This document shows positions 3,357 to 14,808 of a DNA stretch of 64,000 bases, piece by piece. Source of the stretch: Candidatus Hydrogenedentota bacterium (GTDB lineage Bacteria > Hydrogenedentota > Hydrogenedentia > Hydrogenedentales > JAGMZX01). The position numbers were made by a program, and so were the translations under genes. The notes below the pieces were generated by a model. It was not told the origin of the DNA and did not search any database. It saw only the letters and a list, made by a program, of their open reading frames with translations. The stretch's first letter is position 1. Each line of letters starts with the position of its first letter. The stretch spans positions 19,602 to 83,601 of the forward strand of contig JAKQEQ010000049.1 of the NCBI GenBank assembly GCA_029556545.1, read 5' to 3'.

Positions 3357-4547
3357 TCAACTTTCCTCGTCCTGCGCGGGTTCGCGCACGTATGCGCGCC
3401 GGGCGGCAAAATAGAGGTCTTCGAGTCCCACCACCGCCACCCCCTGAAGCGCAGCGCGGGCGGCGGCGGCGTCAAGCAGGGTGACCGCGCTGCCGGGAGG
3501 GCTGCCCGCCGTATCCGGGAGGGTTTCCGCGGCGGCGGCGGCTCCTTGCGCCAGATGCTCGTCAATTGTCACGGCGTGATGCGCCGCGATGGCGGGAACA
3601 TGGGCGGCGACCATAGCGGCGGTCGCATCGCGGGGCGGCGCCTCGAGTGTCACGACATGAACACGCCGGCGCAGGGGCGCTTCCAGAAAGAGCGGCAGGT
3701 GCCGCGGCAGGAGCGTCCCAAGGATCGGAATGCCGCGGTCCAGCGCGTTCGCGAGGATCAGCGGCCCATGCCGCATGTCGCACACGGCGAGTTCCGCGTG
3801 CTCGAGCGCGAGAACCCGACGCGGCTGCCCCTGCATTTCCTGCAGCAGTGCACCGAGCAGGTTCTCGCGCTCGCCTTCGAGCACCACACCGGAGAATAAC
3901 CGTTCCAGATTCACGGCGAGAAGCGCGAACTCGGGGTCCCGCTCCGTGAGCATGCGCGCCACGCCGTGCAGCAGGTTCGTCTTGCCCGCGCCCGACTCGC
4001 CCGTCACGAGCGCGAAGCGCGATTCACCCCACCGCCTGACGCACGACGCCGCTTCGATCACGGCTTCGTCGCGGGCGACGCACGGCCACGCCGTTCCCTC
4101 GCGCGCGCGTGCCGCAAGGTCGTCCGCGATCCCCGCCAGCAGTCCGGCGCCGTCGGCGTCGCGCAGCGCGGGCGGCGCGGGCGCATGCAACACCGGTTCG
4201 CGCCCCTGCGAACCGAGAAGGTCCAGGACGCGCTCCATGGCCCGGTCCCGGGCGCGGGTTCCGCTCGGTTCGAAAAACAGGGCCTTCCAACCGCCCGCGT
4301 CCCAGCCGCGCGCGAAAAGCCGTTGGATTTCGGGGTTGCCCCCCGTGTAGGCAAGGTCGGCGTCCACGAGCACAAGGACTGCCTCCTTCTGCGGCACGAG
4401 TTTCAGGAGCAGGTTCGTTCGGGACTTCGAGAAGTGGTCCGCATGGACGGGGACGCCCCGCAGCAGGGTGGCGTCCCGATCGCTTATGTCGATCGCCACC
4501 TGGAGCCGTTCCAGGCGCTTGGCAAGACGAGCGGTGAACGGTTGCAT
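3357..4547 (-). CDS. Clp-D1-like AAA+ ATPase with degenerate Walker B
   Basis: 396 residues. The first 140 residues are unrecognised. From about residue 160 the sequence follows the first AAA+ module of ClpA/ClpB: a CVARDEAVIEA segment (compare the Clp IGRDEEI motif), Walker A GESGAGKT, a conserved-looking NLERLFSG region, then VLALEHAELA in the place of the Clp Walker B LFIDELH, and a sensor-like GIPILGTLLPRHL. The Walker B aspartate position is Glu and the catalytic glutamate position is His, so hydrolysis may be weak or lost. There is no second AAA module, no N-terminal Clp repeat and no ClpP loop visible. Start ATG follows GAGGGG by 8 bases and lies 14 bases after the PafA/Dop-like gene, so it belongs to the same operon. 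A role as unfoldase adaptor or ATP sensor is inference. Confidence 0.7.
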   Translation of the reverse strand: MQPFTARLAKRLERLQVAIDISDRDATLLRGVPVHADHFSKSRTNLLLKLVPQKEAVLVLVDADLAYTGGNPEIQRLFARGWDAGGWKALFFEPSGTRARDRAMERVLDLLGSQGREPVLHAPAPPALRDADGAGLLAGIADDLAARAREGTAWPCVARDEAVIEAASCVRRWGESRFALVTGESGAGKTNLLHGVARMLTERDPEFALLAVNLERLFSGVVLEGERENLLGALLQEMQGQPRRVLALEHAELAVCDMRHGPLILANALDRGIPILGTLLPRHLPLFLEAPLRRRVHVVTLEAPPRDATAAMVAAHVPAIAAHHAVTIDEHLAQGAAAAAETLPDTAGSPPGSAVTLLDAAAARAALQGVAVVGLEDLYFAARRAYVREPAQDEES

Positions 4548-4561
4548 GGGAAGGCCCCTCC

Positions 4562-6442
4562 TCAGGCCACGCAGTCCGGCGCACGTTCCATGTTACGCGT
4601 CCGCCAGACGTAGCGGCTTTGGTCCGCAGTCACGCGGACCACTTCGCAGCCCGCGCTGTCGAGGCCGACGACGCGCAGTATCGTCGCCCGCTGACCGACA
4701 AACTGATCCATGTCCGCGTTCCAGTTCTGATTTCCGTCGACCGATTCGTGGCGTCCGAGAATGATGGGATCCCCCACACTGAAGCGCCCCGGTTGCTCGC
4801 CTGGAGCCGGTCGTCTTCCCTCGCGCCGTATGAGAGACTCGAAGGACGGGGGCATGCCGAATTGCGCCGCCGCCATGACACGAAGCCGCTCATCGTCGCT
4901 CTTCCATTCCTCGCGGGTGGTCAGCGGGTCCGACAGATCAAGCCACTCCCCCGTACGCGCATTGAAGATACCGCTCCAATCCGCGTTCGAACCGCGGTTG
5001 CCCGCCAGTTCCTTGATCCACTTGCCGCGCAACGCGGCGCGGGTCGTCGCCGGCGGCGTCGTCATGGCCTCGTCCACGCGGTCCACGCCGGGCGCATGAT
5101 GTTCAAGCAGGCCGGCACGGTCCATCTCGGCGAAGATGCCGCCCTCGCCAAGTCGCCCGAAGCAGGTATCGGCCTCGAAGAGCCGCAGCCGGAGGTCGAG
5201 GAATGCATCCAGATCGTCCCACGTGAGGTCGTGCCGACGCAGGACGGGCGTCAACCGCCTGACGCGCGGGGCGGCGGGGCTGTCGCCCGTAAGCGCGTCC
5301 TGGAGCGTGATGCTTATTGGGGTCTCGGGCTTCCGGCGCTGCAACACGGCGCCGACCTGTTGTACGACATTGGACCAGACCGCGATCTGGTCCCAGGTCA
5401 GCCCCTGTCGCCGCGCCATCTCCGTGTAGATCGCGTACTTGATTGCCCAGTCCAGTTTCGTGGCGGCGGCGGCCGCGCCCCCTTCCTCAAGCAGGTCCAG
5501 CACGGCTCGCCACCTGCCGCAGAGGGCTTCGGCCCACTCCGGCATGAACGGTTCGCCGATGGCCATCTCCGCCAGATGCAGGTAGTGCCGCTGGATGTCG
5601 AGCGCGCGCACGGACCGACCGGTCTCGGTCTCCGCCGTGGCCCGGCGACAGGTCGGGTCATTGGCGAAGTCGCGCATGGCTTCGAGCGGCGCCCGCAGGC
5701 GCATGCCTTCGCCGGGGCGAAGCCCGGCGTCGACCATGGCCAGCACGAGGGCGGTGGTCCCGTGGCGCAGCACGGCGGCTTCCTCGGAATGGAGGCTTTC
5801 GCCGCAGTACAGGTGCAGCCGATGCCCCGACCGCGCGAGCGGCTCGTCTTTCGTGTGGAAGATGCCCCGTGCGTTGGTCGAGTGATAGGAGACCACGTGA
5901 CACAAGTGCGCGACCCGGGGCGACAGCGTGAAGTTGGCCCCGAGCGAGAGGTTGCTGAAGCCGCCGCCGCCGGTGTAGATCAGGCGCGACGCGAGGTGGG
6001 AGACGAGTTCGTTGGGCAGACGATCGGGGTTGCTGGTGTACCTGTAGCTGCCATGACAGCCCCATGTCGCCTGCGACACCCCGACGTCGTAGCCGATGTT
6101 GTTGCGGTACACATGAGCCGCCGCGACGGTCGGGTTCTCGCGTCGCAACTCCTCGGCCAGCCCGACCAGGATGCGGTCCGCCGCGAGTTGCCAACGCACG
6201 ACGTCCCAGGGGCTGGTCACTTCGGGACTCGCGATCTCAGGATGGCCGCCGCAATCGATGTAGAAGCGGCTGCCGTTCTCCACAAACATGCCGCCCGGGC
6301 CCGCGCCCGGCAGGTAGCGCAGGGTTCGCTCCGCCGCGTGATACAGCATACCCATGGCATCGCTCTGATCGACGCGCGCGCCGTCCTGGTAGAAGGCCGA
6401 GAGCATGTATTCCGTCTCGACCCCCATCACGGTTTCGGCCAC
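4562..6442 (-). CDS. PafA/Dop-family (Pup ligase/deamidase) protein A
   Basis: 626 residues, starting at GTG 6442 two bases after the stop of the Pup-like gene; the GAGGAG site lies inside the last codons of that gene, which suggests translational coupling. It has the family signature near the N-terminus, MGVETEY (residues 6-12, with the ATP/Mg-binding glutamates E9 and E11), then FVENGSRFYIDCGGHPE (53-69), matching the NGxRxYxD..HPE block in which the Asp (D63) is catalytic in PafA and Dop, then RNNIGYDVG and GGGGFSNLSLGANF. Known members bind ATP and either deamidate the C-terminal Gln of Pup or join Pup to lysines. Length is above the usual 450-500 of actinobacterial PafA/Dop because of a C-terminal extension. 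I cannot tell from sequence whether this copy is the ligase or the deamidase. Confidence 0.88.
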   Translation of the reverse strand: MAETVMGVETEYMLSAFYQDGARVDQSDAMGMLYHAAERTLRYLPGAGPGGMFVENGSRFYIDCGGHPEIASPEVTSPWDVVRWQLAADRILVGLAEELRRENPTVAAAHVYRNNIGYDVGVSQATWGCHGSYRYTSNPDRLPNELVSHLASRLIYTGGGGFSNLSLGANFTLSPRVAHLCHVVSYHSTNARGIFHTKDEPLARSGHRLHLYCGESLHSEEAAVLRHGTTALVLAMVDAGLRPGEGMRLRAPLEAMRDFANDPTCRRATAETETGRSVRALDIQRHYLHLAEMAIGEPFMPEWAEALCGRWRAVLDLLEEGGAAAAATKLDWAIKYAIYTEMARRQGLTWDQIAVWSNVVQQVGAVLQRRKPETPISITLQDALTGDSPAAPRVRRLTPVLRRHDLTWDDLDAFLDLRLRLFEADTCFGRLGEGGIFAEMDRAGLLEHHAPGVDRVDEAMTTPPATTRAALRGKWIKELAGNRGSNADWSGIFNARTGEWLDLSDPLTTREEWKSDDERLRVMAAAQFGMPPSFESLIRREGRRPAPGEQPGRFSVGDPIILGRHESVDGNQNWNADMDQFVGQRATILRVVGLDSAGCEVVRVTADQSRYVWRTRNMERAPDCVA

Positions 6443-6444
6443 GA

Positions 6445-6645
6445 CTACTGCGCTCCTCTCTGCACGTTCGCGTTCAAGAAGGCCTGACAGTTGCCAGACA
6501 GGGCGCGCGCCGCCAAGTCGCCGCCGCGCGCGGCAATGGTTTCCGCGCGGCGTGTCATGCCCTCGAGCCGTCCACCGCCGCTTTCATCATCGGCGCCGGG
6601 CGCGCCGGCCGCAGGGGCGTCATGGGGTCTCTCTCGTAACAACAT
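6445..6645 (-). CDS. Small Pup/UBact-like protein modifier
   Basis: 66 codons, ATG at 6645 preceded by a perfect AGGAGG with a 7-base spacer, which makes translation likely although the frame is too short for normal gene calling. The product is Gly/Ala/Asp-rich and polar in its first half (ADDESGGGRLEG), with a helix-prone second half, and ends FLNANVQRGAQ. M. tuberculosis Pup is also a short disordered protein and ends YVQKGGQ, so the VQ-basic-G-x-Q end is a close match; UBact proteins of other phyla are a second comparison. The final Gln would need deamidation before ligation, which fits the two PafA/Dop-family enzymes that flank the gene on both sides. Codon positions were read directly on the reverse strand. 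The longer frame extending upstream to 6972 enters a hexamer repeat and the neighbouring gene and is not believed. Confidence 0.75.
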   Translation of the reverse strand: MLLRERPHDAPAAGAPGADDESGGGRLEGMTRRAETIAARGGDLAARALSGNCQAFLNANVQRGAQ

Positions 6646-6667
6646 TCTTCGTCCTCCTGTTCGTATT

Positions 6668-6730
6668 GCGGCCACAAGGCCGCCCTCAGTTCTTACTCGT
6701 ACTCGTACTCGTACTCGCACTCGCACTCGA
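6668..6730. repeat. Hairpin plus hexamer microsatellite in the leader of the Pup-like gene
   Basis: Six hexamers of the form ACTCG(T/C/A) run from 6695 to 6730 on the plus strand (ACTCGT three times, ACTCGC twice, ACTCGA once). Next to it GCGGCC-ACAA-GGCCGC (6668-6683) is a perfect 6-bp hairpin. Both lie in the 110-base gap between protein B and the Pup-like gene, just upstream of its AGGAGG. They could form an mRNA processing or translation-control element, or be neutral slippage. Confidence 0.6.
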
Positions 6731-6755
6731 CGCTCGCACCGCGGACCGACTCCGC

Positions 6756-8513
6756 TCAGTCCGTGGCGACCACGGCGCTCGTCGCCGACGCGTAGCTCCT
6801 TCCGCTCGTTGTCGGCGGCGTCGCCAGCGCCTCCAGAATCAACTCGTTGTCGCCGACGGCAAACAACCGCTCCATCGCCGCACGGGTAAAGCCGAGCGGG
6901 TTGGCGAGATAGATTGTCTGCCGCGAGATTCCCGATCTCCCCACACGTCCCCACACCACCAGCCGGTCCCAATCGACCGAATCGATGTCATCAGGGTCCA
7001 GCGTGCGCAGCAGCATGGCGCGCGTCCAGGCGCGCGTATCCTCGGGCGGCGCCTGGACCAGGCGCGCGATGTGCGCCTCTTCGACGATCCGCTCGACCAG
7101 TCCCTCCTGCTCATAGGCCCAATACAGGCCCTCGGCTTCGTCGAGACTCGAGTACAGTTGGTCGAGATAGCGCAGTTCGGGCGACTCCCACGTGAGACCA
7201 GGGTGGCGATCCAGCGCGCCGCGGAGAATCTCGCGCTTGAGCACCCAGTCCAGCCGCCCCGCCAACGTTTCCCAGTCGCCCCGCTCGAGCCGCTCGAGCG
7301 TGTCAGCCCAAAGCGCGAAAATTTCACCGGCCCGCGGCACCGTGGCCTCGCAATCGCCGGACGCGACAAAGGGCGCGGCCTCCTCGAGGAAGAGGCGCTG
7401 GAGCTCGACGGCCGTTACGACGCGGCCGTCGGCGAGGCGCGCGCGCGCCTTGAGCGTCGGGTCGTGGCTGTAGAGCAGCCCCGCCTCGACCGGATCGTCG
7501 AGCATCAGGCGCCCCTTGGTCCTGCCCGCCTCGAGCATCGCGAGAACGATCTGCAACACGCCGATCTTCAGGAGGCATGCCGTGTGGGTGAGATTACTGT
7601 CATAGAAAATACAGTGGAGGCGGCGATAGCGCGGGGCCTCCTCCTCGTCGCGGCGGTAGCTCCACCCGCCGCACAGCGCCTCGTCGCGGGAGTTCACCAG
7701 AGGCCGCTGCACGGTAGTGGCGATGCCCGTGAGCGCCTCCATGAAGTCCATACGCTGACTCAGTTGGTACGCGACCGGCGGCGCGCCGTTCTCGCTGCCC
7801 ACCTTGCCCTGGCCAGTAAAGACGATGCTCGATACCTGGTACGCGGCGAGATAGAGCATGGGATACAACTTGCGGTGGAATATGTCCTCCCAAAGTTTTT
7901 CGGTCAACAGCACGTTGACGTGGCTGCCGTACGAGTTACCCCGGCCGTCGCTGTTGTTCGCCAGCACGACGACGCGCTGCCCTTCCGGAAGCCTCGCGTT
8001 CGCCCGTCGCATCGCGCCGCGCGCGACGCGCAGCATGGCGTGCCACGCCGCCACCCAGTCATGGGCGTTCGTCACCTCGGGCAGGCAAATTTCCAGGTGT
8101 CCTAGATCAATATAACAGCATCCACCGTTCTCCGCCAAGAAGCGCCGTCCCCAGTCCTGCGGGTCAAACGCGCTATATCCGGTGGAATACGAGTACCCGT
8201 AGTCCGCGCCCGCGTTGCCGCCCCAGTTGCCGTAACCGGAACTGAAACCACCGCCGCCGTACCCTGCCGAGACCGATTGCCCGCCCCGCGCGCGCGCCGC
8301 GCGGCACGCTTCGCATTGGCACGCGGATCGCCCGGCAGAGCGCGGCAAGCCTTGGATTTCGCGCAGGAGCGCGTGCGCGGCCTCGCCGCCCGTGCCTTGG
8401 GAACGTTCGAGTCCCTGGATGAAATTGCCGAGTTCGATATCGCCGCCGCACAATTTGACGACGCGCCGCGGCGTCTTCCCGGCGCCTCCTCCGGTGCTCT
8501 TCTGCATTCTCAT
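6756..8513 (-). CDS. PafA/Dop-family (Pup ligase/deamidase) protein B with Gly/Tyr-rich insert
   Basis: 585 residues, ATG at 8513 after AAGGGA. The family signature is altered at the N-terminus to CGGDIELGNF (22-31, glutamate E27 kept). The NGxxxYxD block is NGGCCYIDLGHLE (129-141), keeping the catalytic Asp (D136) and LPE. ANNSDGRGNSYGSHVN matches the NNTDGxGxSYGTHEN block typical of Dop and PafA, better kept here than in protein A. Between the first two blocks there is an unusual insert: a CQCEAC cysteine cluster (65-70) and a Gly/Tyr/Ser-rich low-complexity stretch (about 81-113). The pairing of two very different family members around a Pup-like gene mirrors the actinobacterial Dop-Pup-PafA order. 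Which one deamidates and which ligates is not decided. Confidence 0.87.
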   Translation of the reverse strand: MRMQKSTGGGAGKTPRRVVKLCGGDIELGNFIQGLERSQGTGGEAAHALLREIQGLPRSAGRSACQCEACRAARARGGQSVSAGYGGGGFSSGYGNWGGNAGADYGYSYSTGYSAFDPQDWGRRFLAENGGCCYIDLGHLEICLPEVTNAHDWVAAWHAMLRVARGAMRRANARLPEGQRVVVLANNSDGRGNSYGSHVNVLLTEKLWEDIFHRKLYPMLYLAAYQVSSIVFTGQGKVGSENGAPPVAYQLSQRMDFMEALTGIATTVQRPLVNSRDEALCGGWSYRRDEEEAPRYRRLHCIFYDSNLTHTACLLKIGVLQIVLAMLEAGRTKGRLMLDDPVEAGLLYSHDPTLKARARLADGRVVTAVELQRLFLEEAAPFVASGDCEATVPRAGEIFALWADTLERLERGDWETLAGRLDWVLKREILRGALDRHPGLTWESPELRYLDQLYSSLDEAEGLYWAYEQEGLVERIVEEAHIARLVQAPPEDTRAWTRAMLLRTLDPDDIDSVDWDRLVVWGRVGRSGISRQTIYLANPLGFTRAAMERLFAVGDNELILEALATPPTTSGRSYASATSAVVATD

Positions 8514-8534
8514 GACGATCCCTTCTTCTTCTGC

Positions 8535-8622
8535 GTTCGTAGTCCAGCCTTCAGGCTGTCTTGTTCGTAGTGCAGCCTTTAGGCTGTCCTAAGCGCAGAC
8601 TAAAGCCCGTACTACGAACTGT
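8535..8622. repeat. REP-like element in the ATPase-to-ligase gap
   Basis: Two near-identical units occur in tandem on the plus strand, TCGTAGTCCAGCCTTCAGGC starting near 8537 and TCGTAGTGCAGCCTTTAGGC starting near 8567, each followed by TGTC. A partly complementary GACTAAAGCCCGTACTACGA follows near 8598-8617, so the region can fold back. This looks like a dispersed intergenic palindrome rather than a gene and fills most of the 111-base gap between the ARC ATPase stop and protein B. Confidence 0.65.
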
Positions 8623-8624
8623 GT

Positions 8625-10283
8625 TTACGCCACATTCAAGTACCGCCTCGGCCGCACCACGCGCGGCGTAATCGGCTCGACGCTCACGACCTGCACGTCC
8701 TGGGGCAAGTCCGGCACATAGGAACGAATGTTCTGCGGCGTGAGCGTCGTGCGGAGTTGTTCGAGCGCTTCCGCAACGGCATTCTCGACGTCCTCGACGG
8801 TGATTCCCGATGCTCCGGTCGCAATCTCGCGGCGGCAGGCGCTGCGCCGCGCGGTGCGGCAGACCTGCTCGAAGACGCGCCCGCTCGCAAGTTCCCGCGC
8901 GCGGATGGTGCGGGTCTGGCTGTCGGCAAGACGAATCTTGCACACCGCGTTGTCGCCGTTCGGCGCGTAGAAACGGGAGACCGCCACATCAATCACGTCT
9001 TCCCGCGTTCCCGCGGCGTCGTGACCGTTGACCGCATAGGGAAGCGACTCGGGCAGGTGCACGCCGAAGATGGCGCGCCCGGCGTCGAGGTCCGGCGGCG
9101 GCACGTAGATTTGCAGGTCGGAAAGGCGCTGCATGAGCGCCGGGTCCAGCAAGTCCTTGCGGTTCGTCGCCGCCACGATGATGCCCGGAAGCCGCCCGTT
9201 AAAGCCGTCAAGCCCCTCGAGCCAGCAACTCGTCACGTCGTCGCGCCACTTGTTCAAGCTGTCCCCCCGGACGCGCCCCATGCTCTCGGCGTCGTCGAAG
9301 AAGGCCACCCAGTCCTCCTCGCGCCGCAGCATGTCAATCAAGCGCCGGATGTTCTGCTGGGTTTCGCCCACGTATGCGCTGAGGTAGTCGCTGGGCTGGA
9401 TGTGGGCGAACTTGAAGCGGCGGCCGAGCAGCCGCGAGCATTCCGCGGCGATGAAGCGCGCGGTGGTCGTTTTCCCGCAGCCGGGCGGTCCCCAGAAAAG
9501 GATCGAGCTTCCGAGTTCGAGGCGGTACTTGGCGGCCACGTCCGGCTTCTCGTACCTCCCGAGAATGAGGAGGTGGATATCCTCCAGCATGGCGTCCAGG
9601 CCGCCGATCTGTTCCCGCCTGATATCGGGCGCCTCTTCGAGGAAGATGCGGCGCGGCTCCTTGCGTTCAAGCCGCTCATAGACAAACCACGTGTTGTGGT
9701 CCCAACGCACCAAGTCGCCCGGCTCGAGCACCGTATCCAACAGCGCGCCGGCCCGGTGCAACACGACCTCCTCGTCCCGCCAGCGGACCACGACACGCGC
9801 CGCGTCGATGTTTCGCTCGAACGACGCGATCTCGCCGCAGGGCGGCGGTCCCAGCGCCGACCGTTCCAGTACGACATTCAGGTCATGCGCCAGCAGCACC
9901 TCGCCGCCGATGTCCGCGGGCGAGAGTTCAACCTCGTTAGCGATGGCCACGACGCGCCGGGCGGAACCGTGCGCGACGACCGCGCGGGTCCCTTCGCGCG
10001 TCTCGATATGCCCGAGGAAGACCGCCGGGTGCCACGGCGGCGCCAGCGCCTCGCGCTTCAGTTCCTCGAGCGTCCCCGCGAGTTCGCGGTTCACGCCGTG
10101 AAGTTCCGTCACGGTGGCGCCGAGTGTCTGAAGCCGGTCGAGCATATACCGATCGAGCAGTTCCGCCTTACGCGGCGCGGTCGCGCGGAACTGGTTCATC
10201 AGCATGAGCTTCTCATCGATGCCCGGCGCCCTTTCGCCCACGGCCCCGATCATTTCGAGAAAACTCTGGTCTGGTATCGACAT
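8625..10283 (-). CDS. Mpa/ARC-type proteasomal AAA+ ATPase
   Basis: 552 residues, ATG at 10283 after AGGAGG with an 8-base spacer. Layout matches Mpa/ARC: an N-terminal helical, coiled-coil-like part (about 35-80), interdomain OB-like region (about 85-205), then one AAA module with Walker A GPPGCGKTT (265-273), pore-loop-like AYVGETQQN (303-311), Walker B AFFDDAES (327-334) and AATNRKDLLDPAL. In Mpa/ARC the ring threads pupylated proteins into the 20S core. Two differences are visible: the catalytic glutamate of Walker B is Asp (FFDD rather than FFDE), and the C-terminus is RYLNVA rather than the QYL end used for 20S docking. No 20S subunit gene is present in the window, so the partner protease is unknown or encoded elsewhere. 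It sits between the JAMM gene and the Pup block. Confidence 0.9.
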   Translation of the reverse strand: MSIPDQSFLEMIGAVGERAPGIDEKLMLMNQFRATAPRKAELLDRYMLDRLQTLGATVTELHGVNRELAGTLEELKREALAPPWHPAVFLGHIETREGTRAVVAHGSARRVVAIANEVELSPADIGGEVLLAHDLNVVLERSALGPPPCGEIASFERNIDAARVVVRWRDEEVVLHRAGALLDTVLEPGDLVRWDHNTWFVYERLERKEPRRIFLEEAPDIRREQIGGLDAMLEDIHLLILGRYEKPDVAAKYRLELGSSILFWGPPGCGKTTTARFIAAECSRLLGRRFKFAHIQPSDYLSAYVGETQQNIRRLIDMLRREEDWVAFFDDAESMGRVRGDSLNKWRDDVTSCWLEGLDGFNGRLPGIIVAATNRKDLLDPALMQRLSDLQIYVPPPDLDAGRAIFGVHLPESLPYAVNGHDAAGTREDVIDVAVSRFYAPNGDNAVCKIRLADSQTRTIRARELASGRVFEQVCRTARRSACRREIATGASGITVEDVENAVAEALEQLRTTLTPQNIRSYVPDLPQDVQVVSVEPITPRVVRPRRYLNVA

Positions 10284-10295
10284 AGTTGCGTCCTC

Positions 10296-11351
10296 CTATG
10301 ACGAGGCTTCGCCTCGTCCGCCATCTGCCCGCAGCATGTGAAAACCACGCTGCAAAATCCGCGTACGCCGCCACCCGTAGAGGTCGAAGCGCAAGCCTCG
10401 TTGCCCGTCCGTGACGACCAGCGCGACGCTGTAAGCGTGCGGGAACAACGTCGCGTGAACTTGCTGGTCCGCCGCGCTGAAGAAGCATTCTAGGGAACAG
10501 GTCGCGCGCTTCTCCGGCGGGCAGTCCTTGCACCACTCCTTCGCCGGGTGCGAGTGGTACCACCCGAGGGGCGTCTCGGAACCGCCGCGCAGTCGGATCG
10601 CGTCCCGCGCGGCGGCCCAGGTTTCCCCGGTAAACGTAAGCGAGGCGCTGTCCGCCTGGACATGTTCCGCGGGCAATTGCGCCGTCACCTCGGCGAATAA
10701 CTCGCCCGCGTCCGCGTCGCGGCAGAGCCGCCCAATGAGCATGCCGCCCGTCTCGCACGGTCCGGCGTCTCGCACGAGCGCCGCAATCCGTTCCAGCATC
10801 GAGGCGGGGAAGAACACCGGGAAGTCGTCGGTCGTGTCGGGCCCGCAGACCATGGACCGCGCGAGGTACGGATCGAGCGCGCTTGCATGGACCGGCAACG
10901 GGTCGCCCGCCTCGCGGATGCGCACAGAACCGTCGTCGCTCGGCCCGCCGCAGCCATTCTTCTCGTGCGCAAGCACGCCGTACTGGAACGTATCGCCCTC
11001 CTTCAGCACCCCCCGCGCCACCAACTGCACCGAAGCCGCCTCGGCCAGCTTGCGGAAGTAGGTGATTGGCACAATCACGCCGCCGTCCGCGTCCGGATCG
11101 GGGCCGGCCGCGACGTTCTCCAGCGCCACCTTCACGCCCGCCACGTGCGGCCGGCCCGACTTCGTATCCCAGATAGGCTGGACAACACCGTCGCTGTGAA
11201 AGGCGTCCGGCGACAACCGGCCCCGGCGCAGCGCGGTAAGCCGCGCGTCCTCGTAGGCGGGGCCCCAATCCGGCTCGACCGCGGCTTCGCCAAGGCGGTC
11301 GCCGTCCTCCTTGTAGAGCGTCAGGATGAAGCTGTAAGAGCTTTCAACCAT
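10296..11351 (-). CDS. JAMM/MPN+ metalloisopeptidase with N-terminal domain and cysteine insert
   Basis: 351 residues from ATG 11351, chosen because AGAGGG lies 7 bases upstream; a GTG at 11369 would add six residues. The C-terminal half is a JAB/MPN domain with a complete JAMM set: E200 in CETGGMLIG, H266 and H268 in GWYHSHP, and D295 in FFSAAD. Such enzymes use zinc to cut isopeptide bonds after Ub-like tails or to trim Ubl precursors. Between the HSHP and the SAAD there is an insertion with four cysteines (C274, C277, C285, C289; CKDC ... CSLEC) that could bind a second zinc. The first 160 or so residues are a separate unrecognised domain. The gene ends in a perfect 8-bp hairpin (10300-10318) and lies 12 bases before the ARC ATPase. 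It is the likely deconjugase of the Ubl encoded just upstream. Confidence 0.9.
   Translation of the reverse strand: MVESSYSFILTLYKEDGDRLGEAAVEPDWGPAYEDARLTALRRGRLSPDAFHSDGVVQPIWDTKSGRPHVAGVKVALENVAAGPDPDADGGVIVPITYFRKLAEAASVQLVARGVLKEGDTFQYGVLAHEKNGCGGPSDDGSVRIREAGDPLPVHASALDPYLARSMVCGPDTTDDFPVFFPASMLERIAALVRDAGPCETGGMLIGRLCRDADAGELFAEVTAQLPAEHVQADSASLTFTGETWAAARDAIRLRGGSETPLGWYHSHPAKEWCKDCPPEKRATCSLECFFSAADQQVHATLFPHAYSVALVVTDGQRGLRFDLYGWRRTRILQRGFHMLRADGGRGEASS
10300..10318. repeat. Perfect hairpin at the JAMM/ATPase junction
   Basis: GACGAGGC-TTC-GCCTCGTC is an 8-bp perfect inverted repeat with a 3-base loop. It covers the last codons of the JAMM gene and lies just upstream of the AGGAGG of the ATPase gene, so it could adjust relative expression. 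There is no T-tract, so it is not a typical terminator. Confidence 0.6.
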
Positions 11352-11370
11352 ATTCAACCCTCTCTTCACA

Positions 11371-11387
11371 GCGGGCGCGTCGCCCGC
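11371..11387. repeat. Perfect hairpin in the Ubl/JAMM gap
   Basis: GCGGGCG-CGT-CGCCCGC is a 7-bp perfect inverted repeat lying in the 41-base gap between the Ubl stop and the JAMM start. It belongs to a GGGCG-N3-CGCCC palindrome family also seen at 3213-3225 and 40245-40263. Confidence 0.6.
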
Positions 11388-11392
11388 GATCC

Positions 11393-11665
11393 TCAGCCCG
11401 CCGCGATATCCCTCTGGATTGTTAGAGCATCGTTTGGTTCGAGCACGTCGCCGACGATCTCGCTGTTGTGCAAATGTCGGCCTTCGCGATCGAGGCGGGC
11501 GGTCCAGACTGTTTCCTCGCCATCCCCGGGATTCGCCGGGAGATGGAGCCGGTCAAGAATCCGGCCAAAGGCCTCGCCCCACGAGGCTTCAAGCGGAAGT
11601 TCAGTCACGTAACTCCGCTGGCCGGTCATGTCTCTGACCCGCACGCTCACAGTTTCTGCTGCCAT
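11393..11665 (-). CDS. Ubiquitin-like beta-grasp protein (Ubl)
   Basis: 90 residues, ATG at 11665 preceded by AGGAGGTGA, a full match to the anti-Shine-Dalgarno, with a 7-base spacer from AGGAGG. The sequence has the ubiquitin-type strand-helix-strand layout: VSVRVRDMTG, strand YVTELPLEA, helix WGEAFGRILDRLHL, then TVWTARLDREGRHLHNSE, a glycine-containing VGDVLEPNDALTIQ close to the ubiquitin LxDxxIQxxSTLHL region, and the tail RDIAAG ending in a single Gly. A C-terminal glycine is what an E1 would adenylate; no extra residues follow, so no processing is needed in principle. Its start overlaps the upstream gene by 19 bases. The gene neighbours (E1, E2, RING, JAMM) make the role as conjugated modifier likely; sequence alone would not. 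Confidence 0.8.
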   Translation of the reverse strand: MAAETVSVRVRDMTGQRSYVTELPLEASWGEAFGRILDRLHLPANPGDGEETVWTARLDREGRHLHNSEIVGDVLEPNDALTIQRDIAAG

Positions 11666-12573
11666 GAAATCACCTCCTCTCGGACCCGGTTCGAACCCCG
11701 CGCCTGTCCGGCCTCCGGGGACCATCCCCGACGGCGCAGAAAGGCGCTTGCGACGCGCGGACTGCTCAAGGCGAGTAGAGGCCCGCCGCACAAGCCCGCG
11801 GCCACCGTCAATGCTTCGAGCACGCGCCCCAACAGGAAACTCTGCGGCCGATCCTCCCACTGGTGCTCGAATCCGACCCCCTCGTCCGTCGTCACCGGGC
11901 GCACCAGACGGACCAGCCCCGAAGCCGCCAGCAGCAGACTGCCGGCGGCGGCGCGACACGCGGGGTCGACGCCCTCGGGCGCATGGAAGCGCCACTGCGC
12001 GCGCGGCGGGGAGCCGCACGTCAGCAGCACGCGCTCGGAACAGCGAGCGCGCCCCACCTCGACCGCCACGTCGCCCGTGGCGCGGGGCGCGCTCTGCCAT
12101 CCTGCTTCGGCGCAGAGTTTGGCCCAGTCGATTGTTTCCGCGTCGCCTTCAAGCGGCGCCGCGCAGGACACTGCCGCCCCCTGTTCGTGCCATGCCTGGC
12201 GTATGCCCTCAAGCGCGCGCGCCACCGGAGATCGCAGGTCCACTCCGCGCGTCAGCGGGATTTCCGCGAACAACCTGGGCTGGCCGCCGTCGCCGATGCC
12301 GAAGCGCACCCCACCCCGCAACGTTGCGTTGCGCTCGATCAACGCCAGCGCCCCCTCGGGGCTGTCCTCCAGAAGTTTGTGTATGGCTTCCGAGCACGGC
12401 GCCCGCAACAGAAGCCAGTCCGGTTGCAGGCGCGCCCCGCCGCGGACCATCACGCCGTTCTTCGTTGTGAACGCGAACGCGTCCGCACCACACGGCTCGA
12501 TGCCCGCGCCGGCCTCCTCGAAGGCGTCGCGCACTGCCTTCAACCACGGATTCGCGGAAGTTGTTGTTATCAT
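11647..12573 (-). CDS. Unrecognised protein of the Ubl operon
   Basis: 308 residues from ATG 12573, which follows AGGTGAG with a good spacer; a GTG at 12582 would add three residues. I do not recognise a family. The sequence has a predicted alpha/beta make-up with repeated two-domain feel: an N-terminal half with AFAFTTKNGVMVRGGARLQ and WLLLRAPCSE resembling a bacterial secretion-chaperone-like or YbjN-like fold, and a second half with QWRFHAPEGVDPACR and FLLGRVLEAL. Eight or so cysteines are scattered without a zinc pattern. It lies between the E2-like and Ubl genes with 9-base spacing and a 19-base overlap, so it is a core member of the operon; adaptor or Ubl-binding protein is a guess. Confidence 0.75.
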   Translation of the reverse strand: MITTTSANPWLKAVRDAFEEAGAGIEPCGADAFAFTTKNGVMVRGGARLQPDWLLLRAPCSEAIHKLLEDSPEGALALIERNATLRGGVRFGIGDGGQPRLFAEIPLTRGVDLRSPVARALEGIRQAWHEQGAAVSCAAPLEGDAETIDWAKLCAEAGWQSAPRATGDVAVEVGRARCSERVLLTCGSPPRAQWRFHAPEGVDPACRAAAGSLLLAASGLVRLVRPVTTDEGVGFEHQWEDRPQSFLLGRVLEALTVAAGLCGGPLLALSSPRVASAFLRRRGWSPEAGQARGSNRVREEVISWQQKL

Positions 12574-12582
12574 GGCGCTCAC

Positions 12583-13101
12583 CTATGATGCCTCCGCCGC
12601 ACGCACGTTCACCGCGACGCGCCGCCGCTTGAGGGGCCGCTTGTCAACCGGAAGCCGATCGAGGCATCGCCGCCCCCATGCCGCGGCCTCGTGGTTGAGC
12701 GCGTCGCCCCAGTTGACCTTCTGATAGGTCCAGATATCATAACACTGGTACAGTATATCAACTAGCTGTGTCCCTTCGCCGAGGCGACCCGGGCAGATGA
12801 AGGGCGCCCTAATTTGCGGGTGCCAGGCGTGGGGCGGGCACAACCAGGTGAGTACTTCGAAGGGCGTGCAGCGCTGCAGATAATCGTCCGGAAACCATAT
12901 GCCGACGTCGCAGAACGGCGCCTCCCCGATCTCCCCCGTCACCGGGTCACGCACGAGGCCGCGCGCGTGAAAACGCGCAATATACTTCCGCACGGGGTCT
13001 CCGGCAAACGGCTTGAGTTCAAGAATGTCGCTCTGGTCCGCGAGTTCCATTGCCGCGACCAAGTTGCGTTCGAGAAACGATCTCGTCTGATAGTCCAACA
13101 T
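12583..13101 (-). CDS. E2-like (UBC-fold) conjugating protein
   Basis: 172 residues. The ATG at 13101 overlaps the E1-like stop as TGATG, and GGAGGAAGG lies 4-12 bases upstream; a GTG at 13116 would add five residues. The middle part follows the E2 fold: a strand FCDVGIWFPDDY, PFEVLTWLCPPHAWHPQI, then APFICPG, matching the E2 HPN(I)...ICLDI block in which the Cys (C103 here) forms the thioester with the modifier. VDILYQCYDIWTYQKVNW follows where E2 proteins have the helix after the active site, and the Trp is in the expected region. The C-terminus is very basic. Its order between E1-like and Ubl genes supports the call. The canonical E2 Asn before the Cys is not obvious. Confidence 0.82.
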   Translation of the reverse strand: MLDYQTRSFLERNLVAAMELADQSDILELKPFAGDPVRKYIARFHARGLVRDPVTGEIGEAPFCDVGIWFPDDYLQRCTPFEVLTWLCPPHAWHPQIRAPFICPGRLGEGTQLVDILYQCYDIWTYQKVNWGDALNHEAAAWGRRCLDRLPVDKRPLKRRRVAVNVRAAEAS

Positions 13102-14237
13102 CAGACCTTCCTCCACGGCGCGTGCGCGAAGCCGTTACACGCCAGTTGCAGGTGGACCGGACTCCGGTCCGGCGCGGACACCGTAAACACGTCGCCGGGG
13201 CGCAGGCCGAGTTGCGCGAGACTGCGGCGCCGCTCGGCGGCGCTGAGTTCGGTCAGCACGAGTTGATCGACGAGGTCGAAGCCCGCGGCGATATTGCGTT
13301 CGCCGCACAACCGGCACAGGCGCTGCCGCGCCGTGAGGCGGTCCGCGAGTCGCAGCGGGATCGCTATACGGCCACAGCCGTTCGCGCAAGTCAGCGCCCG
13401 CGTGAACCGCCGATGTTCGAGGGACAAGGCGCTTGGCTCGCGGGACAGCGCCGCTTCCGCGAACACGTCGCCAAGGGCCACATCCTCGGGGCGCACGTCC
13501 AGGATGCGGATATCCCACCGCTGATGATCAAAGCGGCACGCGGGATTCCGCGTGAAGCGCGTCACTGTGCAGGTCTGATTCCGAAGATCGAACATCGCTT
13601 GGCGGCTGACGGCCGGCGCTTTCAGGCCCGTCCCTAACAATGCGCTCACCTCAATGGCCTGGAGGCCGGCCGCCAGCGCGCCGAGCGCGGAAGGCGCATT
13701 CGTCGCGGCAGTCGCCGCGGTACTGCCATCGCAGTGGTATTCCTTGGCCAGGTTCCGGTAGTGGCCCTCGTGCCACGCACATTCCAGGCACGGCGCGTCG
13801 TCGCCGGACAGGTACACACTGACCCGCGCCAACAAGTCAGGGCCGTCCACGGCAACGTCGACCAGCGGCAACCCGAGCCGCCACGCCACCTGGTTCATGT
13901 AGAGGCGCGCACCACGGGAATCGACACAAGAGACGAGTATCCCGCCTCGCAACCAGCCCCAGGGCACGTCCTCGATCCGGCCGACGAAGGCCGCGGTCGC
14001 GCGAACGCCGAACCGGCGCAACCAACGCGCTTGTACGGCCGCCTTCGGCTTGCCGACATCGCACGGCAAGATCCGCTGTGAAACGAGGTTCTTGGCTTCG
14101 TAGGAATCGTAATCCACGAACAACACGGGGCCGGCCCCCGGGATACTGGGGATCAATGCGGCGAACGGGCTGCCGGTATTGCCGCAGCCGACCACGATGA
14201 GCGGCGCATTGGCGTCTATGACGACTGTGTCAGACAT
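13101..14237 (-). CDS. ThiF/E1-like activating enzyme
   Basis: 378 residues from ATG 14237, which overlaps the upstream stop by 8 bases (ATGTCTGA); a longer upstream frame is of poor composition. Rossmann adenylation domain: VVGCGNTGS (15-23), acidic strand end FVDYD with the E1-type AKNLVSQR (48-55), GKPKA (62-66) and VSCVDSRGARLYMN (102-115, the Asp and Arg/Asn of E1 proteins). CLEC (150-153) and later pairs CANGC and CRLC are likely zinc ligands. C169 before a GLQAIE helix is placed like the catalytic Cys of ThiF/MoeB proteins. It should adenylate the C-terminal Gly of the Ubl (11393-11665) and pass it to the E2-like protein. The C-terminal 100 or so residues after the Rossmann domain carry extra Cys pairs and are not assigned. 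Confidence 0.9.
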   Translation of the reverse strand: MSDTVVIDANAPLIVVGCGNTGSPFAALIPSIPGAGPVLFVDYDSYEAKNLVSQRILPCDVGKPKAAVQARWLRRFGVRATAAFVGRIEDVPWGWLRGGILVSCVDSRGARLYMNQVAWRLGLPLVDVAVDGPDLLARVSVYLSGDDAPCLECAWHEGHYRNLAKEYHCDGSTAATAATNAPSALGALAAGLQAIEVSALLGTGLKAPAVSRQAMFDLRNQTCTVTRFTRNPACRFDHQRWDIRILDVRPEDVALGDVFAEAALSREPSALSLEHRRFTRALTCANGCGRIAIPLRLADRLTARQRLCRLCGERNIAAGFDLVDQLVLTELSAAERRRSLAQLGLRPGDVFTVSAPDRSPVHLQLACNGFAHAPWRKV

Positions 14238-14808
14238 GGCGGTAGAGTTCCTCGGGCGTCCACACGAACGTCCCGTCCAACGCCGGAAGCGGCTGGCGGC
14301 AGCTCTTACAGGTGGGGGCGATCGTGTAGCAGGGCAGCGGCCGATCTGGATCGTCCGGCATGTCGTGGTACCAGGCGCCACACCGGCTGCAACGCCGGAC
14401 CTGTTGGCCAGGCAGAAGTTCCAGAAGACAACAGGGGCAGGTCACTTGCCGCCCGAGGTCCGGCATGACCTCGGATTGCGATAGCCGCTCGGTCGAGAAG
14501 AACGCGCGCACGCCGCCCGGCAGCCGGATTTCGTCACGATCGGCGAGCAAGTGAATGCCAAGGCGAATCGCTTCGCCATTCACACGCACGGCTGGGTCCC
14601 CGGTCAGGATCGCCCAGTGACCCTCGCCGTCCTGGTCGCATGGCATCAACGTGGTCGCTCCCTGCAGCGCGTCCGCCTCTTCAATCGGGCGCAGGGCCAC
14701 CGCGCCGTCGTCCATTTCGATCAGGCCGGCCATCACCTGATCAAGGCTGAGGGGTTCCCAGACGCGCTTCGCGTCTTCATTCTTGACTTGCCGCCACAAT
14801 TGCGCCAT
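14230..14808 (-). CDS. RING-like/FHA-like protein, E3 candidate
   Basis: 192 residues from ATG 14808; the frame continues upstream to 14877 but with no site as good. Residues about 60-110 (WAILTGDPAVRVNGEAIRL ... ADRDEIRL) look like the core of an FHA domain. Residues 124-170 contain eight metal ligands in treble-clef spacing: C124-x2-C127, C140-x2-C143, H148 in WYH, C160, C167-x2-C170. This is the pattern of prokaryotic RING families, which are known from operons with E1, E2, Ubl and JAMM genes. It is the first gene of the run and overlaps the E1-like gene by 8 bases. Working as an E3 or as a substrate adaptor that reads phosphothreonine through the FHA part is inference; the Ser/Thr kinase at the end of the cluster would be a natural partner. 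Confidence 0.78.
   Translation of the reverse strand: MAQLWRQVKNEDAKRVWEPLSLDQVMAGLIEMDDGAVALRPIEEADALQGATTLMPCDQDGEGHWAILTGDPAVRVNGEAIRLGIHLLADRDEIRLPGGVRAFFSTERLSQSEVMPDLGRQVTCPCCLLELLPGQQVRRCSRCGAWYHDMPDDPDRPLPCYTIAPTCKSCRQPLPALDGTFVWTPEELYRHV

Follow-up and report, generated by a model that had tools for sequence, protein, structure and literature searches.

An operon that joins ubiquitin-type and Pup-type protein-tagging genes around a single ARC-type ATPase in a Hydrogenedentota bacterium

We analyzed a stretch of 64,000 nucleotides from a Candidatus Hydrogenedentota bacterium (assembly GCA_029556545.1, contig JAKQEQ010000049.1, positions 19,602 to 83,601 of the forward strand; hereafter, the window), in which genes for a ubiquitin-type conjugation set are followed by genes for a Pup-type set. 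Eleven open reading frames, none with an internal stop, run on the minus strand from 14808 to 3357 in the order RING/FHA-like protein, E1, E2, a protein of 311 amino acids, ubiquitin-like protein (Ubl), JAMM metallopeptidase, Mpa/ARC ATPase, Dop-like protein, Pup, PafA-like protein, and Clp-D1-like ATPase. A preliminary description of this DNA had proposed the same eleven-gene run, and each of its reading frames proved open at the positions that it gave. Its gene assignments also held, those of E2 and RING less firmly than the others. The window copies of E2, Ubl, Pup, and the 311-amino acid protein have no Pfam match and were assigned through relatives. In gene order, the features are as follows; the higher coordinate of each is its start, refined by comparison with relatives.

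14230..14808, minus strand: RING/FHA-like protein, candidate E3, 192 amino acids, with a C-terminal zinc module and an N-terminal FHA-like beta segment
13101..14237, minus strand: E1 (ThiF fold), 378 amino acids; PF00899 at 9e-17; extra C-terminal CxxxC/CxxC zinc site
12583..13101, minus strand: E2-like protein, 172 amino acids; predicted catalytic Cys in HPQIRAPFIC
11647..12582, minus strand: 311-amino acid protein with two predicted tandem type III secretion chaperone/YbjN-like domains (AlphaFold2 and Foldseek)
11393..11665, minus strand: Ubl (YukD-like beta-grasp), 90 amino acids, ending AG, without lysine; assigned from its model and relatives
10296..11351, minus strand: JAMM metallopeptidase; PF14464 (Prok-JAB) at 1.4e-6; N-terminal region of about 180 amino acids; Cys-rich insert
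8625..10283, minus strand: Mpa/ARC-type AAA+ ATPase, 552 amino acids; TIGR03689 pup_AAA at 8e-64, AAA at 1e-23
6756..8513, minus strand: Dop-like depupylase/deamidase, 585 amino acids; PF03136 Pup_ligase at 4.9e-90
6445..6645, minus strand: Pup-like modifier, 66 amino acids, ending VQRGAQ, without lysine; strong Shine-Dalgarno site, orthologous reading frames
4562..6442, minus strand: PafA-like Pup ligase, 626 amino acids; PF03136 at 1.4e-75
3357..4547, minus strand: single-AAA Clp-D1-like ATPase, 396 amino acids, an optional part; ClpV1 at 1.3e-13, ClpB at 2.7e-9

The RING/E1, E1/E2, and 311-amino acid protein/Ubl junctions are overlaps (the E2 ATG at 13101 overlaps the E1 stop), the genes for E2 and the 311-amino acid protein abut, and short gaps separate JAMM from Mpa (12 bases), Pup from PafA (2), and PafA from the Clp-like gene (14). 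Measurement thus bore out the earlier count of seven junctions that overlap or leave fewer than 15 bases. Wider gaps lie between Ubl and JAMM (41 bases, or 23 with a GTG start), Mpa and Dop (111), and Dop and Pup (110). Several starts have a Shine-Dalgarno-like run 5′ of them; that of Mpa reads ATAGGAGGACGCAACTATG and that of Pup ACAGGAGGACGAAGAATG.

In the ortholog alignment of E1, the GxGNxGS motif, D44, D108, R113, CxEC, C171, and the cysteines C286, C290, C310, and C313 are invariant. As in ubiquitin-type cascades, the protein combines the ThiF fold (PF00899) with an invariant nucleotide site, and C171 is its candidate catalytic cysteine, judged from sequence. The E2 carries a Cys, invariant in 11 orthologs, shortly after an HP (or xP) motif. 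Searched against the Protein Data Bank up to an E-value of 10, the E2 profile matched only two proteins, both E2 enzymes and both weakly (0.38 and 0.70), and it aligns with UBC in the catalytic register, HPN and catalytic Cys superimposed (UBC HPNI...CL). The preliminary description had looked to profile searches for E1, E2, and PafA/Dop hits; these were clear for E1 and PafA/Dop, whereas E2 gave none in the window and UQ_con matched 3 of the 11 orthologs weakly (best 0.0096). The RING protein, whose start at 14808 was picked from a conserved MAxLW, has eight ligands that are invariant in nine orthologs (C147, C150, C163, C166, H171, C183, C190, and C193, numbered from 14877), in the C4HC3-like order C-C-C-C-H-C-C-C. 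Prok-RING_1 (PF14446) matches eight of the nine (best 3.7e-6); the window copy, at 0.018 and a score of 15.4, lies below the cut-off of 29.1. The N-terminal part reads like an FHA domain, although it has no Pfam match.

The AlphaFold2 model of Ubl, built with 22 relatives, is a beta-grasp fold with a predicted local distance difference test score (pLDDT) of 87, which Foldseek matched to SUMO2, NEDD8, and ubiquitin with probability 1.00; YukD (PF08817) matches 13 of the 22 relatives (best 1.5e-15). Ubl thus pairs the fold of ubiquitin-like proteins with a C-terminal Gly. The AG is invariant among loci of the composite type, by which we mean loci with both the Ubl-E1-E2-RING-JAMM set and the Mpa-Dop-Pup-PafA set, and it is followed by 0 to 7 residues depending on the species. 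The JAMM motif is complete, with invariant E206, H272xH274, and S298xxD301. Given the residues that follow AG elsewhere, JAMM may mature a Ubl precursor in some species, though not in that of the window, because the window Ubl already ends in AG. Between HxH and SxxD, residues 275-298 of JAMM hold a Cys-rich insert, CxxC...C (C280, C283, and C291), in 6 of 6 aligned orthologs.

The 311-amino acid protein is best described as a tandem, pseudo-dimeric protein of chaperone fold, judged from its AlphaFold2 model (11 orthologs; pLDDT 84, predicted template modeling score 0.82). Foldseek gave SycT, YbjN, and SchA probabilities of 0.99-1.00, yet no E-value below 0.001. Residues 148-275 align with type III secretion chaperones and YbjN-like proteins at VIA-align Z up to 9.3, and residues 11-134 align with SycH, SycT, and SycE at Z up to 7.2. 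The best Foldseek E-values went to chains of Arp2/3 subunits, but these came with low probability and a root-mean-square deviation of 17 and were set aside in favor of the much better matches that each half gives to chaperones. The type III secretion chaperone fold often binds disordered segments in secretion, and our guess is, therefore, that this protein may hold the disordered Pup tag or an unfolded client.

The Mpa/ARC protein keeps the pore-loop YVG and Walker A and contains the proteasomal-ATPase OB domain (PF16450, 3e-7); its TIGR03689 score is below the equivalog cut-off. The two PF03136 proteins separate as a Dop-like and a PafA-like paralog. The former scores 277 bits with TIGR03688 (Dop) vs. 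226 with PafA, the Dop model leading in four of four orthologs tested, and the latter scores 192 bits with TIGR03686 (PafA) vs. 187 with Dop, the PafA model leading in five of six orthologs with one tie. As expected of carboxylate-amine ligases of this family, the active-site Asp and the Mg-binding acidic residues are kept (YID, GVETEY/GGDIELG): YID is present in every Dop ortholog whose sequence covers it, and GVETEY and YIDxGxHPE are conserved among PafA-like orthologs. A small Pup-like reading frame, next to PafA in the window, follows Dop in every locus covering the place and ends in G[GAT][QE] or TGQ (the ends seen are GGQ, GGE, GAQ, and TGQ). The window Pup ends in A-Q and its relatives mostly in G-Q; a divergent Planctomycetota version (G337) ends in NRSGQ. 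Two side observations concern these proteins. In its Walker B, the Mpa/ARC protein has FFDDAES in the window genome and FFDDCES in a second genome of the same genus (G000 and G040 in our comparison set, where G and L numbers label genomes and loci), with Asp where most relatives carry Glu. Only these two genomes have a C-terminal PafA extension of about 110 amino acids (NWNADMDQFVGQRATILRVVG; window 4562-4900, L013 16129-18003), for which no significant Pfam match was found.

The joined gene order recurs well beyond the window. When genome contigs were scanned with the Dop-like protein as query, four loci emerged, each a piece of this operon; they come from a deltaproteobacterium, a Planctomycetaceae bacterium, a member of Bryobacterales, and an unassigned bacterium. 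Further copies were found by searches with an E2 alignment, and relatives were annotated with profiles built from these copies. The genomes compared are drafts, and several loci are cut by contig ends. As far as the contigs allow, RING-E1-E2-311-amino acid protein-Ubl-JAMM-Mpa-Dop-Pup-PafA is found in G040, G068, G070, G087, G121, G084, G605, and G835, and it is split over contigs in G071, G572, and G069. Complete or cut, the composite order is present in more than 10 genomes from five phyla: that of the window (E2 in 2 of 68 genomes, G000 and G040), Planctomycetota (including G071, Planctomycetaceae), Acidobacteriota (including G070, Bryobacterales), a deltaproteobacterial phylum (G069 and G835), and the phylum of the unassigned bacterium G068 (five genomes). 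A very divergent version keeps the same order in the Planctomycetota genomes G337 and, over two contigs, G263. Partial sets were seen as well: Mpa-Dop-Pup-PafA at a contig edge in G685 and, in the window's phylum, Dop-PafA pairs at contig starts without an E2 match in G045 and G009. G391 was not counted; it has Pup-Dop-PafA on a short contig, its RING match lies within a long overlapping reading frame, and the remainder is unlike the operon.

The cluster in G040 shows 50-75% identity and lies beside the same upstream chromosomal oxidoreductase gene as in the window, which rules out an assembly artifact or chimera and indicates that the locus has been inherited in place in this genus. The joining of the two halves, as proposed earlier, thus stands; its order is conserved across phyla, and it is, therefore, not a chance neighborhood. 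In relatives, too, the halves are linked. The Clp-like gene is present in G000, G040, G721, and G605, sitting between Pup and PafA in the last, and it also adjoins Dop-PafA in G045 (L150, 1-4622, at a contig start); it was not found in the remaining complete loci.

The boundary between the halves is narrow. JAMM and Mpa are 12 bases apart in the window, overlap by 4, 8, and 11 bases in L069, L016, and L071, and are 23 and 29 bases apart in L083 and L072. The halves also co-occur among genomes, in counts that ignore relatedness: in the Planctomycetota set (392 genomes), 40 have an E2 match, 38 a Pup_ligase match, and 14 both (Fisher, 2.4e-6), with Pup ligases in five of five genomes with strong E2 matches (6.7e-6); in the Acidobacteriota set (297 genomes), the numbers are 11, 8, and 4 (6.7e-5), and all four genomes with strong E2 matches have Pup ligases (2.2e-7). 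Concatenated trees of E1, E2, and JAMM and of Mpa, Dop, and PafA share three of eight splits, and at least three were shared in 49 of 20,000 label shuffles. No strongly supported conflict between the two trees was seen. The comparison fits joint inheritance but resolves little; since support is weak for most internal branches, the congruence is no more than modest.

Linkage of this kind could arise if two independent pathways shared an operon for common regulation alone, with the Ubl targets differing from those of Pup and ARC. Both halves do occur separately in related genomes, and in no case was a Ubl-side domain seen fused to a Pup-side domain. However, the order persists across very deep divergence, the G337/G263 type included, and the JAMM and Mpa genes often overlap, where simple co-regulation would tolerate more shuffling; we consider such independence rather unlikely.

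The composition of the two tags bears on how they could be combined. In the window and in G040, neither Ubl nor Pup has a single lysine, and several other Pups also lack it. This absence is only mildly unusual in an operon with 2% lysine (P about 0.06 and 0.03), and depletion across the wider set is weak (8 lysines vs. 15 expected in Pup and 27 vs. 22 expected in Ubl). It nevertheless means that, within the genus, Ubl cannot form chains through lysine and neither tag can be joined to the other in that way. Unless N-termini or residues other than lysine serve as linkage sites, the two tags must, therefore, have other proteins as their targets, either next to each other or one after the other. 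A mixed chain that acts as one compound signal has in its favor that both ligases are encoded in one operon, but the lack of lysine blocks such linkage in both genomes of the genus, and we find the idea scarcely credible. The earlier suggestion of a chain in which one tag controls the other is accordingly not supported in this genus as far as attachment is concerned; control of one half by the other is weighed below.

We next consider where a tagged protein would end up. The proteasome family PF00227 has one match per genome in eight of eight genomes; the two that were typed are both HslV, and the single match in all eight looks like HslV. No 20S alpha or beta subunits were found in these eight draft genomes. 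The window ATPase ends in RYLNVA and lacks the C-terminal docking motif GxYx; in orthologs, an aromatic residue mostly stands about five residues before the end, not in the penultimate position. In Pup-proteasome systems, a penultimate-tyrosine motif of the ATPase docks on the 20S alpha subunits, and about half of the sequenced actinobacteria have lost the core subunits while keeping the pupylation enzymes (PMC6466877). Corynebacterium glutamicum is also without proteasome subunits, and the role proposed for its ARC is to unfold ferritin that carries Pup, with no degradation involved (PMC8223512). The 20S proteasome is, therefore, probably not the end point here, and on this analysis we favor remodeling over degradation, because of the lone HslV-like match, the missing docking motif, and these actinobacterial and C. 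glutamicum precedents.

Together, these features suggest a two-tag, ARC-driven protein-remodeling operon, a reading to which we give about an even chance. E1 would adenylate the C-terminal AG of Ubl and hand Ubl to the cysteine of E2, with the RING protein assisting in its placement on target proteins; JAMM would trim Ubl precursors in species where these carry a tail and strip Ubl from targets. Dop would deamidate the C-terminal Gln of Pup, PafA would join Pup to target lysines, and Dop would remove it again. The Mpa/ARC ring would then pull on the Pup tag and unfold or disassemble the tagged protein, presumably with parts for the chaperone-like and Clp-like proteins, and the product would be released rather than degraded on the spot, because a 20S core is seemingly unavailable. 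Both tags probably act on the same targets, either next to each other or one after the other rather than as mixed chains, such that, for example, Ubl marks or protects and Pup commits to unfolding. The proposal of two tags feeding one unfoldase is consistent with this evidence, its reactions and shared substrates being conjectural.

Several points weigh against such a joint machine. The halves may only be co-expressed, with the tags never meeting on one substrate, and each can occur alone: L143 in G108 (7845-12630) is an Mpa-Dop-Pup-PafA set with no ubiquitin-type genes nearby, and Pup-less relatives of the Ubl half exist. Among the latter are operons of YukD-like Ubl, E1, JAMM, and E2 (L075-L081 and L085-L088, Planctomycetota and Acidobacteriota), in several of which E2 lies some kilobases away from the Ubl-E1-JAMM genes. 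G721 has the genes from E2 to the Clp-like gene in order on contig C37, but its RING-E1 pair is on another contig (L184, G721:C2, 7407-9773), with no E2 beside it. Moreover, draft genomes may be incomplete, so that failing to find a 20S core does not prove that there is none, and degradation by another protease may take place.

A stricter form of the two-tag, ARC-driven reading is a two-tag code, in which RING-dependent Ubl conjugation would license or veto pupylation of the same substrates and ARC, with the chaperone-like protein as adaptor, would remodel them without a proteasome. We regard this code as possible but somewhat unlikely; if true, two unrelated protein-tagging chemistries form a single pathway. 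Alternatively, the Ubl half could regulate the Pup half, with Ubl on PafA, Dop, or ARC switching pupylation, much as Cap2 of the cyclic oligonucleotide-based antiphage signaling system (CBASS) acts on the cyclase. The tight linkage of the halves would suit such a switch, as would the established habit of bacterial E1-E2 operons to conjugate onto the product of a neighboring gene (PMC10097602 and PMC11153139). However, the presence of a RING-like protein of its own and of a separate Ubl points to a broader range of targets; we judge this switch distinctly improbable.

Each half of the operon is of a known kind. Burroughs, Iyer, and Aravind reportedly described, in 2011, operons of YukD-like Ubl, E1, E2, JAB, and RING. 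The composite type has the same five component types but differs in its own E1/E2/Ubl subfamily, the tandem chaperone-like protein, and the downstream Pup-ARC set. Likewise, a single operon supplies the E1, E2, and JAMM functions in the Bil, Bub, and CBASS Cap2/Cap3 systems, some of which include a Ubl; to our knowledge, Pup, Dop, PafA, and ARC are absent from them, and we know of no ubiquitin-type genes at the pupylation locus of C. glutamicum. An anti-phage role related to Bil, Bub, or 6A operons is hinted at by matches of E1 and JAMM to the PADLOC E1-E2 and JAB models and to a 6A anti-phage NCBIfam model. These matches are weak, partial, and below cut-off, and so membership in the Bil, Bub, or CBASS families is not indicated; the upstream flank is chromosomal and syntenic in G040, and a search of 72,556 plasmids gave only two distant, low-identity actinobacterial matches, which also speaks against a plasmid origin. 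We hold a defense role to be very improbable.

On the Pup side, the operon resembles the actinobacterial Pup-proteasome in its adjacent genes for a Pup with C-terminal Gln/Glu, Dop and PafA paralogs, and an ARC-type ATPase. It differs in that 20S genes were not found in the genomes checked, the ATPase lacks the terminal GxYx, a ubiquitin-type set is joined, and window-type proteins score far below equivalog cut-offs. With C. glutamicum pupylation and its ARC-driven ferritin disassembly (PMC8223512), it shares Pup and ARC without a 20S core. Pup-PafA loci without proteasome subunits have been reported from planctomycetes and deltaproteobacteria (Rhodopirellula and Plesiocystis) in a paper that says nothing of JAB in its main text (Iyer et al. 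2008, PMC2588565); in contrast to those loci, the operon described here also contains E1, E2, Ubl, and JAMM. We found no description of the joined operon in open-access full text, a coverage outside which fall Burroughs et al. 2011 and the UBact papers, which may note linked loci.

Ubiquitination and pupylation are regarded as inventions that arose separately and converged. With both tags around one unfoldase in five phyla, the present operon offers a natural system for testing cross-talk between them. It suggests that some bacteria may operate the two chemistries as a single machine that lacks the usual proteasome core, and it casts doubt on the idea that the purpose of Mpa/ARC and Pup is to supply a 20S proteasome. 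It also provides a bacterial E1-E2-RING-Ubl-JAMM set that is complete and has a likely motor downstream, which bears on how ubiquitin-type tags first came to be linked to unfoldases.

As a minor observation, the gap between the Dop-like and Pup genes contains a short tandem repeat of GAGTGC/GAGTAC units (minus strand) at about 6690-6732 of the window.

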